NCBI RefSeq assembly: GCF_900113835.1 | Contig: NZ_FOQV01000001.1 | Location: 248,001 to 312,000 of the forward strand | Length of the DNA stretch: 64,000 nucleotides | Direction of reading: 5' to 3' | DNA from: Allobosea sp. OK403 | GTDB lineage: Bacteria; Pseudomonadota; Alphaproteobacteria; Rhizobiales; Beijerinckiaceae | Shown here: one piece after another, positions 19,534-62,233 of the stretch | Layout of the letters: every line of letters starts with the position of its first letter | Numbering within the stretch: the first letter of the stretch is position 1 | Made by a program: the position numbers and the translations under genes | The notes under the pieces: model-generated | What the model was told of the DNA's origin: nothing | Database searches by the model: none | Seen by the model: the letters and a program-made list of their open reading frames with translations, nothing else

Positions 19534-19550
19534 CGCGGCTGGAGCAGTTT

Positions 19551-19656
19551 CCGATCAGGTCGGATCGACCTGATCGGCTAACGCGCGCTCTACCTCATTA
19601 TTTTATCGCATTTTCTTCACGCGAACCGGTGTCCACTTCGCTCGAAAATGCTCTAG
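19551..19656 (-). repeat. Core-plus-palindrome intergenic repeat, copy 1
   Basis: A palindrome with perfect 12-bp arms (19551-19562 and 19566-19577, CCGATCAGGTCG) is followed by the conserved core in reverse orientation (19595-19656), which ends at GCTCTAG and contains CACGCGAACCGGTGTCCACT. The palindrome arm shares CCGATCAGGT with the elements at 3624-3724. Confidence 0.85.
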
Positions 19657-20923: not shown

Positions 20924-20934
20924 GGCGATACTCC

Positions 20935-21035
20935 AGAGCGTTTTCGAGCGAAGTGGATACCGGTTAGCGTGAAGAAAACGCGTTAAAACAAAGAGCTAGA
21001 GCAGTTTCCGATCTAATTGGGTCGGAAACTGCTCT
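20935..21035 (+). repeat. Core-plus-palindrome intergenic repeat, copy 2
   Basis: The core runs 20935-20993 (GTTTTCGAGCGAAGTGGATA, CCGGTTAGCGTGAAGAAAA). It is followed by a palindrome with perfect 14-bp arms, AGAGCAGTTTCCGA (20998-21011) and its complement (21022-21035), around a 10-nt centre. It lies downstream of the LysR gene end. Confidence 0.85.
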
Positions 21036-21091
21036 AACCCAGCTGGCGATCGATGAAACCCTGGTGGAGGCGGCGGGCACGCCGCCCGGCC

Positions 21092-36925: not shown

Positions 36926-37043
36926 GCTCAAGCGGCCTCTGCGGGCAAATGATGCGCCCTTTTAACCCGCTATTGTGAACAGTCCGGTCAAGCTCGCGTG
37001 AGCTGGCCGCGAGATCGGTGAACAGCGTTACCGAGCGGTTGCT

Positions 37044-37270
37044 AGAGCAGGATGCGAAAAAGTGGGAAGCGGTTTTTCGCAATCGATCCGGCTCTAACTC
37101 TTTGATGAGAGACGGATTCAGATTTCACACGGGATCACTTTGTGATCCCGTGTGAAATCATCCGGCTCTAGAGCATTTTCGAGCAAAGTGGACACCGGTT
37201 CGCGTGAAGACGATGCGATGAGACAAGGAAGTAGAGCATTCCCGCGATTCGGAGGAACGCGAGAATGCTC
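37044..37270 (+). repeat. Cluster of palindromes and core repeat, copy 3
   Basis: Four elements in series: a GCGAAAAA/TTTTTCGC hairpin bounded by AGAGCAGGAT/ATCCGGCTCT (37044-37095); a perfect palindrome with 18-bp arms (37121-37138, 37142-37159); the conserved core (37170-37229); and a 13-bp-arm palindrome with one mismatch (37234-37270). The last ends one base before the GAGGGA ribosome site of the deacetylase. The gap 36926-37282 holds no gene. Confidence 0.85.
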
Positions 37271-37282
37271 GAGGGATAAGCG

Positions 37283-51762: not shown

Positions 51763-51878
51763 TAGGGCGTCTTCGAGCGAAGTGGGGTACCGGTTCCCAC
51801 GCGACAAACGCGAAGCGTTTGCGCGGGGAAAGCGCGTCAAAACAATGACTTGGAGCACTTAAATGATCCAGCTGGATC
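51763..51878 (+). repeat. Core-plus-palindrome intergenic repeat, copy 4 (degenerate)
   Basis: The core (51763-51848) is diverged (CTTCGAGCGAAGTGGGGTAC, CGGTTCCCACGCG) and carries an internal hairpin CAAACGC-GAA-GCGTTTG. A palindrome GATCCAGCTGGATC follows at 51865-51878. It lies between two minus-strand genes. Confidence 0.65.
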
Positions 51879-51888
51879 GGAGCCCGCG

Positions 51889-52284
51889 CTAGGTCGGCTC
51901 CGCGCCTTGTTCGCCGCTGACGAGCCATGTGCGCTTAGCTCTCAAATAGTCGGCCATCGCTTTCAAATCAGCTGCCTTGGCCTCGAGCTTGTCGATCTGC
52001 GCGCTGACGATTTCGATCCTCCGCTCGGACGTCATGCGTCCGGCGCGGCGCTCGGCACCCAGGGCCGCGATCTCCTTGAGGGACAGTCCGGCGGCCCGGG
52101 ACAGGCGAATGAGTTCGACGGCGCTCACGTCGCTTTCGGCGAAGACCTGATACGCATGGCGACCGCCCTTTGTGCCCGCACCGGGGCGGAGAAGCCCGAG
52201 GCGGACATAGAAGCGCACCGTGTCGGTTGTCAGCCCGGTCGCCCGCGCAAATTCGGAGATCAGCACGATCCGTCTCTTGACCAT
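51889..52284 (-). CDS. MerR family transcriptional regulator
   Basis: 131 residues. The winged helix LISEFARATGLTTDTVRFYV with LGLLRPGAGTKGG is followed by helices (ERRIEIVSAQIDKLEAKAAD) for dimerisation. ATG 52284 is where the domain begins. It is divergent from an aldo-keto reductase, and a MerR-type promoter with a 6-bp dyad reads toward that gene. No cysteine-rich metal site is seen. Confidence 0.88.
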   Translation of the reverse strand: MVKRRIVLISEFARATGLTTDTVRFYVRLGLLRPGAGTKGGRHAYQVFAESDVSAVELIRLSRAAGLSLKEIAALGAERRAGRMTSERRIEIVSAQIDKLEAKAADLKAMADYLRAKRTWLVSGEQGAEPT

Positions 52285-60843: not shown

Positions 60844-60874
60844 GCCTGAGAGGCGAGAGCCTCATCCAACCTGG

Positions 60875-60975
60875 CGCGTTCGCGAGCGAAATGGACGCCG
60901 GTTCGCGTGAAGACAACGCGTTAAAACAAAGGGACACAGCAATTTGACGATCTGACCAGATCGTCAAATTGCTGT
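60875..60975 (+). repeat. Core-plus-palindrome intergenic repeat, copy 5
   Basis: The core (60875-60933) is followed by a perfect palindrome with 19-bp arms (60936-60954, 60957-60975) around AC. The next base starts GGAGA, the ribosome site of the CoA-transferase gene at 60984, so the folded RNA would sit against it. Confidence 0.9.
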
Positions 60976-60983
60976 GGAGAGCC

Positions 60984-62177
60984 ATGCCGCGCCCGACGCC
61001 GTCTTCAGCGCTCAACCGCCTCCGCGTGCTCGATCTCTCGCGCGTCCGGGCGGGGCCGACCTGCGTGCGCGTCTTCGCGGATTTCGGCGCCGATGTGATC
61101 AAGGTCGAGAGCCCGCCGGGCTTCGACCCCAACGAGAACATGAGCGGGCCGCGGCATGGCTATGACATGCAGAACCTGCATCGCAACAAGCGCTCGCTGA
61201 CGCTCAATCTGAAGACGGAAGGCGGCGCGGCGGTCCTGCGCAAGCTGATCGAGAGCGCCGACCTCCTGGTCGAGAACTTCCGGCCCGATGTGAAGGAGCG
61301 GCTCGGCCTCGATTTCGAGACGCTGCACGCGCTCAATCCGCGCCTGATCCTGGTCTCGATCTCAGGCTTCGGCCAGAGCGGGCCTTACCGGACGCGCGCG
61401 GGCTTCGACCAGATCGCCCAGGGCATGGGCGGAATGATGTCGGTGACCGGTCTGCCCGGCCAGGGGCCGGTGCGCGCCGGCATCGCGGTCGCCGATTCCG
61501 CTGCCGGGCTTTATGGCGCGATCGGCGCATTGGTGGCGCTGCAGGAGCGCGCGGTCTCCGGCAAGGGCCAATGGGTCCAGACCTCGCTGCTCGAAGCCCA
61601 GATCGCGATGATGGATTTCCAGGCGGCGCGCTTCCTGGTCGAAGGCCTGGTGCCGCCGCAGGCCGGCAACGACCATCCCTATTCGACGCCGATGGGCGTC
61701 TATGCGACGCGCGACGGCCACATCAATATCGGCGTCGGCGCGGAAGGGCATTGGCGCTCCTTCTGCAGGGCGATCGACCGCCCCGACCTCGCGACCGATC
61801 CGCGCTACGACAATATGGAGAAGCGGCTCAAAGCGAGGCCCGAATTGCGCGTGCTGATCGAGGGGATCCTGGCCACGCAGGACAGCGCCCATTGGCTGGC
61901 AGCCTTCGAGGCGGCGGCCGTGCCGGCCGGGCCGATCTACGCAGTCGACGCAATGTTCGACGATCCCCAGGTCCAGCATCTGGGCATCGCGCAACCGGTT
62001 TCGCATCCGGTGATCGGCGATTTCCGTGTCATCGGCGAGCCGGTCGGCCTGTCGCGCACGCCAGCCTCTGTGCAGACGCCGACGCCCGAAGCCGGCGAGC
62101 ACAATGCCGAGATCCTGGGCGAGCTCGGCTATGACGAGGCGGCGATCACGCGTTTGAGGGATAGTGGCGCGATCTAG
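60984..62177 (+). CDS. CaiB/BaiF family CoA-transferase
   Basis: 397 residues, family III CoA-transferase. LSRVRAGPTCVRVFADFGAD, DVIKVESPPG and RNKRSLTLNLKTEGG are the N-terminal motifs; GIAVADSAAGLYGAIG contains the catalytic aspartate. It moves CoA between carboxylic acids. Its TAG stop lies at the first base of a repeat (62175), and a crotonase gene follows, suggesting an acyl-CoA pathway. Confidence 0.92.
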   Translation: MPRPTPSSALNRLRVLDLSRVRAGPTCVRVFADFGADVIKVESPPGFDPNENMSGPRHGYDMQNLHRNKRSLTLNLKTEGGAAVLRKLIESADLLVENFRPDVKERLGLDFETLHALNPRLILVSISGFGQSGPYRTRAGFDQIAQGMGGMMSVTGLPGQGPVRAGIAVADSAAGLYGAIGALVALQERAVSGKGQWVQTSLLEAQIAMMDFQAARFLVEGLVPPQAGNDHPYSTPMGVYATRDGHINIGVGAEGHWRSFCRAIDRPDLATDPRYDNMEKRLKARPELRVLIEGILATQDSAHWLAAFEAAAVPAGPIYAVDAMFDDPQVQHLGIAQPVSHPVIGDFRVIGEPVGLSRTPASVQTPTPEAGEHNAEILGELGYDEAAITRLRDSGAI

Positions 62178-62233
62178 AGCATTTTCGAGCGAAGTGGACG
62201 CCGGTTCGCGTGAAGACAATGCGATAAAACGGG
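62175..62233 (+). repeat. Core intergenic repeat, copy 6
   Basis: Core sequence only (TAGAGCATTTTCGAGCGAAG, later CCGGTTCGCGTGAAGACAAT); no adjoining palindrome. It provides the TAG stop of the CoA-transferase gene and ends 18 nt before the crotonase start. Confidence 0.9.

Follow-up and report, generated by a model that had tools for sequence, protein, structure and literature searches.

A MITE-like two-hairpin repeat of Allobosea sp. OK403 whose palindrome arms are probably rewritten in part by template switching

How can a repeat keep a conserved core while the arms of the palindrome beside it agree within a copy and differ from copy to copy? This question was raised by six repeats in one window of the Allobosea sp. 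OK403 genome (the whole stretch of DNA that was analysed, 64 kb in length). In the original prediction, palindromes adjoined five of the six cores. Since simple duplication would copy a palindrome along with its core, it was proposed that the palindromes are made, swapped or homogenised in place. The best explanation of our data, which we consider quite likely, is a combined one: a MITE-like element whose hairpin-2 arms are in part rewritten by template switching. Our confidence that the repeat is such an element is, taken alone, higher still.

A complete copy begins with hairpin 1, which is the core and has the form TAGAGC(G/A)TTTTC...GAAAA(C/T)GC. It is followed by a AAAACAAAG-like linker and then by hairpin 2, the palindrome, bounded by TAGAGC...GCTCTA. 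When folded as DNA, copies 2, 3 and 5 each formed two hairpins, and none of 200 shuffles per copy folded as well. All six predicted cores of ~60 bp were confirmed in the 64-kb window. Copy 1 (19540..19655, minus strand, ends counted by hand) consists of an A-class core at 19598-19654, a locus-specific 12-bp palindrome at 19551-19577, whose longest exact arms are 12 bp, and a B1-type right end. The other five copies lie on the plus strand. Copy 2 (20934..21036) has a G-class core at 20935-20991 and a near-perfect B1 hairpin 2 at 20997-21036 with exact outer arms of 15 bp. Copy 3 (37169..37272) joins an A-class core (37170-37226) to a B2 hairpin 2 (37232-37272) with one mismatched pair. Copy 4 (51763..51891) is a long-core variant (51765-51845) with a degenerate B1 hairpin 2. 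Copy 5 (60874..60976) carries a G-class core at 60876-60929 and, at 60935-60976, a B1-type hairpin 2 that is perfect over arms of 20 bp. Copy 6 (62175..62230) is a truncated A-class core with no second hairpin.

Perfect palindromes do stand beside four cores, as predicted, and nine with arms of at least 12 and a loop of at most 12 occur in the window, against 0, 0, 0, 1, 0, 1, 0, 0, 0 and 2 in ten shuffles. The predicted arms of 12 bp at copy 1 and 18 bp at copy 3 were found again, and those of copies 2 and 5 had to be lengthened from 14 and 19 bp to 15 and 20 bp. The 18-bp palindrome assigned to copy 3, however, lies upstream of the core and belongs to a different repeat (37043..37170, plus strand), of which it forms hairpin II at 37121-37159. 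The "14-bp palindrome" of copy 4 is GATCCAGCTGGATC, whose arms are just 7 bp. At the gathering threshold, Rfam gave a tRNA as its sole match in the window.

The repeat beside copy 3 is missing at this position in the relatives G019 and G001, and similar repeats were seen in L021, L026 and G019. It has the order AGAGCAGGATGCGAAAAAGTGGG..., spacer AACTCTTTGAT, then hairpin II, and its hairpin II arms also seem to vary between copies and agree within a copy. The long core of copy 4 (51763-51848) contains CGCGACAAACGCGAAGCGTTTGCGCGG, as do those at C13:25755, C13:293173 and C13:297407; no ortholog of copy 4 was found in the relatives. The core loop of the Nitrobacter locus L107 holds another insert.

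The profile search found 59 core copies at E<=1e-4 in 1.264 Mb of the window genome (G000), and one dinucleotide-shuffled control gave no match at E<=1. Extrapolated to the genome size of 6.64 Mb, this amounts to about 300 copies. An exact 30-base core pattern matched at least 103 stretches across the genomes scanned; this being a lower bound, the pattern is spread wider than the matches listed. The same core was found in Caulobacter, and in Bradyrhizobium, Chelatococcus and Caulobacter it is joined to other palindromes. For further comparison we used 115 own-genome copies: the 59 from the contiguous 1.264 Mb and 56 from loci chosen by similarity to typed queries (profile cut-off 30 bits), the latter a sample that favours consensus-like copies.

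The classes of core and palindrome are strongly linked. G-core/B1, G-core/B2, A-core/B1 and A-core/B2 were found in 56, 13, 4 and 33 copies, respectively (Fisher p 1.5e-12), and G-core with B1 or A-core with B2 accounts for 89 of 106 copies. Nine of the 115 copies fitted neither palindrome class by the score cut used, which was not strict (threshold 18, with shuffled stretches scoring up to 25). A few palindrome classes that travel with their cores were the very outcome that, according to the original prediction, would mark an ordinary dispersed family. This is largely what we observed, and the in-place rewriting described below survives it for a part of the copies. The B1 consensus is itself imperfect, with the left arm GAGCAATTGAACGATCC and the right arm (reverse-complemented) GAGCAATTTCCGATCC, and one B2 subfamily of five copies has mismatched arms. 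The motif GANTC occurs in the hairpin-2 stretch of 0/60 B1, 32/46 B2 and 1/9 other copies, and in 60/94 copies from other genera.

It turned out that core and palindrome move as a unit. We compared G000 with G019 (~93% DNA identity over aligned blocks) and with G001, a same-genus relative, within the available stretches, which gave 38 pairs from the 59 copies and four single loci. Reading against these genomes revealed an empty ortholog in a relative for 11 G000 copies and for 4 G019 copies. The G000 insertions are 101, 102, 102, 102, 119, 108, 102, 102, 103, 126 and 104 bp long, that of 126 bp being a long-core variant. Three G019 insertions measure 98, 100 and 118 bp, and the fourth (371256) was read from the alignment. 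Thus most insertions are 98-108 bp, with the three exceptions of 118, 119 and 126. For copy 2, the syntenic stretch of G019 and that of G001 have no core. The inference that the palindromes must be made separately from the cores is therefore not needed: the two insert together, and their classes are linked.

The junction retained a TA at 9 of the 15 empty sites. Five sites have no TA (C11:524238, C12:389786, C13:235711, C13:293173, C13:309183), which is due to divergence or misalignment, and at the remaining one, G019 61676, the junction is ambiguous. At C11:423755, a CTAA case, GTTCTAAACAGG became GTTCTAGAGC...GCTCTAAACAGG upon insertion, and GGCTAATTC changed in like manner in a CTAA case of G019. 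These two cases indicate that the duplication is TA and not four bases. Ends were recognised in 88 of the 115 copies, with TA before GAGC in 66 and after GCTC in 64; outside an intact TA, the flank is YTA on the left in 64/66 and TAR on the right in 64/64. The element therefore targets TA, with a preference for YTAR, and leaves the TA duplicated. Both a whole insertion with an empty site and a target duplication, as expected of a MITE, were found. A search for terminal inverted repeats common with an autonomous element gave only the element's own GAGC..TTTC-like ends and no parent.

Such a symmetric preference, for Y ahead of the duplicated TA and R behind it, fits a DDE transposase better than a tyrosine transposase. 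This bears on the idea of a REP/RAYT-type system, in which the tyrosine transposase of the genome would mobilise the hairpins in single-stranded form. The genome does have one Y1_Tnp gene, at L184, but that locus (3336 bases) contains neither the core nor the TAGAGC/GCTCTA end of the scanned form, and we consider such a system very unlikely. RAYT was rejected as the mover on the same grounds, the gene locus being without the core and the repeats not flanking the gene. The RAYT-like gene (L184:1100-2150) is flanked by copies of TTACGGTGACAGT, which are unrelated to the core. An IS630-type mover was also rejected, Pfam DDE_3 having no match in the genome. DUF4096 transposases are encoded at two loci and show no matching ends as far as seen: the element at L368 ends in CTAGGCTCAGGACTCATT/AATAGGTCCTGAGCCTAG, which the repeat does not, and L367 gave no clear ends. 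The mover of the repeat would probably be a DDE transposase that duplicates TA and acts in trans.

The core and palindrome thus form one small non-autonomous MITE-like element of ~102 bp with two hairpins, of an alphaproteobacterial kind. The kind itself is ordinary and of known type (CIR/RIME/Bru-RS), likened here by description only. RIME is ~108 bp long and has two palindromes. It is the rhizobial intergenic mosaic repeat of Osteras, Stanley and Finan (1995; cited in PMC2245857), again likened by description. The palindromic intergenic repeats Bru-RS1 and Bru-RS2 of Brucella (Halling and Bricker 1994) are 103-105 bp long and, as described in PMC2267715 and PMC2266754, are associated with IS711. 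The target of IS711 is reported as YTAR with the TA duplicated (PMC2266754); in contrast to Brucella, no IS711-like element with matching ends was found here. Closest by description are the CIR, the Caulobacter CcrM-associated intergenic repeats of Chen and Shapiro 2003 (via PMC2229807, PMC10969869). The original prediction recognised no described family with such a rule, yet in the account of PMC2229807 the CIR have this anatomy: a length of ~110 bp, a pair of long inverted repeats that form arms on either side of a linker, and TA ends. The folds of copies 2, 3 and 5 show the same arrangement. The CIR are also described as abundant in alphaproteobacteria and as having a GANTC in or close to one hairpin loop; here 32/46 B2 copies have it in the hairpin-2 stretch. 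Caulobacter has the same core as the present repeat. The B1 hairpin 2 differs in having no GANTC, and mobility is left open in the CIR passages of the review (PMC2229807), whereas the empty sites show mobility here. Because GANTC is absent from the B1 hairpin 2 and the likeness is one of description and not of published sequence, we would not file the repeat as CIR. Exact sequence pieces of the core and of a related repeat gave no publication in a literature that covers few subscription journals.

We then have to ask how an element that brings its palindrome with it comes to have private arms. Among the 60 B1 copies, the arms are perfect in six and contain a single mismatch in two. No two of these eight are alike, and none of their arm pairs recurs in another of the 60. 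The predicted difference between copies thus holds for the perfect B1 copies; these are a minority, and the bulk of the B1 class has a single imperfect palindrome in common, with 33 of the 60 at an arm distance of 0.24-0.29. All six perfect copies come from the contiguous part, which holds 38 of the 60 B1 copies. The predicted agreement within copies was borne out in both classes: arm distance was 0.276 within against 0.331 between copies for B1, and 0.191 against 0.221 for B2, with 0 of 2000 permutations as low when every copy was retained. In further tests, copies above an arm distance of 0.45 were dropped (57/60 B1 and 41/46 B2 retained), and the agreement again exceeded that in all of 5000 permutations. 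With the homogenised copies omitted, the observed agreement was reached in 0/5000 permutations for B1 and 4/5000 for B2. Conversion of whole arms is therefore not the sole source of agreement, and smaller co-changes exist.

Orthologous loci show how arms change. At C13:256002, G001 has a family-type left arm, and the left arm of G000 exactly reproduces the right arm of the same copy, down to a private base and a 1-nt deletion; G019 has no element there. The private base stands on both arms, so that an earlier copying event is needed even if the perfect state were ancestral. The left arm of copy 5 reads TAGAGCAG... in G019 and CACAGCAA... in G000; each of three left-arm differences in G000 matches the right arm common to both genomes, one inner pair also differs on both arms, and in G001 the hairpin is mostly lost. 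At both loci an arm is thus an exact copy of the other arm of the same locus, as template switching would produce. At C11:523129 the left arm of G019 is of the right-arm type. At C12:2350, three adjacent pairs have changed on both arms, CCA in G001 and G019 against TAC in G000, with the partner arm altered to match and the inner arms perfect in all three genomes; as both arms changed, this reading needs a first step that is not seen. Across the genome, both arms are of the right-arm type (TCCGATCCNNNNGGATCGGA) at 10 sites, and the reversed control gave 0. At the copy 5 locus (60875-60933), G019 and G001 have two tandem cores and G000 has one.

These four loci belong to 15 same-class shared loci that were read by eye (C11:285170, 308876, 326886, 523129, 543798, 570472, 657801; C12:2301, 343372; C13:25755, 100085, 131203, 168144, 256002, 297407), and at the other 11 the arm change was one-sided, confined to a single pair, or none. 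The proportion of 4/15 is no rate, since loci had been chosen for perfect copies (C13:256002, C12:2350 and C12:325912 were looked up for their perfect G000 copy). Two further perfect copies offer no comparison: in G001 the site of C13:235711 is empty, and both relatives have unrelated sequence opposite C12:325912. The predicted homogenisation in place is therefore real, for a minority of copies.

Could selection have made the arms agree? Point mutation followed by selection for a functional hairpin, such as a terminator or an RNA structure, would restore pairing step by step. In its favour are the arm agreement that extends beyond the homogenised copies, the hairpins of copies 2, 3 and 5, which fold far better than shuffles, and single-pair co-changes such as those of copy 3 and C13:100085. 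But most B1 copies retain the imperfect consensus, a subfamily with mismatched arms was repeated in five B2 copies, and at C13:256002 the clustered changes, a deletion among them, reproduce the opposite arm exactly. We therefore regard selection as an unlikely source of the pattern.

Another possibility is that ectopic gene conversion or recombination among hundreds of copies replaces arms or modules, and that perfect arms come from other copies. At the site of copy 1, both relatives have a G-class core with an ordinary B1 hairpin; G000 combines an A-class core with a new 12-bp palindrome beside the old right end. Judged by its sequence, copy 1 is a chimera relative to its orthologs. At C11:584608, C13:234698 and C12:325856, G000 has the core repeat, and G019 or G001 has another family with the same TAGAGC-type ends, which reflects either repeated use of one site or exchange. 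Copy 1 and these three sites look exchanged and keep conversion from other copies partly viable, and they give some support to the predicted swapping. Against this, no two of the eight B1 copies with perfect or near-perfect arms have the same arm pair, none of these pairs has a match among the other B1 copies examined, and the base copied at C13:256002 is private to the right arm of that locus. The copies examined are part of the genome's total, so an unseen donor is possible. On balance, ectopic exchange as the general source of the arms seems improbable.

Arm perfection could also be coupled to transposition, if an intermediate re-copied one arm and insertions started with a private perfect palindrome. 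Three insertions missing in at least one relative (C11:363788, C13:235711 and copy 2) have perfect or near-perfect arms unlike those of other examined copies, and they support such a coupling. Several other relative-lacking insertions, for example C11:591219 and C13:168908, carry an ordinary imperfect hairpin and count against it. We think the coupling highly improbable; if true, it would be a built-in diversification step.

We thus favour the combination of a mobile element and template switching. The element inserts at TA and brings hairpin 2 along with the core, in most cases as an imperfect palindrome. In some copies, replication across hairpin 2 would then have switched template, and one arm would have been re-copied from the other. 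Re-copying would perfect the arms and spread a private change to the opposite arm, with the outcome that arms agree within a copy and differ between copies. The rewriting itself is observed at orthologous loci, and the replication step behind it is deduced from what is known of quasi-palindrome correction. Template switching is described as homogenising inverted-repeat arms and inverting spacers (PMC8604942; PMC8794818). As in quasi-palindrome correction (Ripley 1982 via PMC8604942; PMC8794818), one arm serves as template for the other and the changes are clustered. The mechanism is not new; the difference lies in the substrate, here a natural family of related quasi-palindromes.

Such a large family of near-identical quasi-palindromes, part of which is common to orthologous sites, is a natural template-switch mutation assay in a wild bacterium. 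The rate of template switching, its direction (the template arm) and its replication-direction bias could be read from existing genomes. In addition, covariation between hairpin arms is commonly read as proof that an RNA structure is under selection, yet mutation by itself can produce it, as has been pointed out before for RNA genes (PMC8794818).

A perfect core-type palindrome at C11:437528-437571 has its loop inverted relative to G019. This is likely a spacer inversion, as template switching would give, although it may be an independent insertion in the opposite orientation. The insertion of copy 6 is absent in G019, G001, G012, G013 and G006, and its first three bases (62175-62177) supply the TAG with which the CoA-transferase gene at 60969-62177 ends. 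In these relatives, the stop of that gene is TGA (G019, G001, G013), TAA (G006) or TAG (G012).
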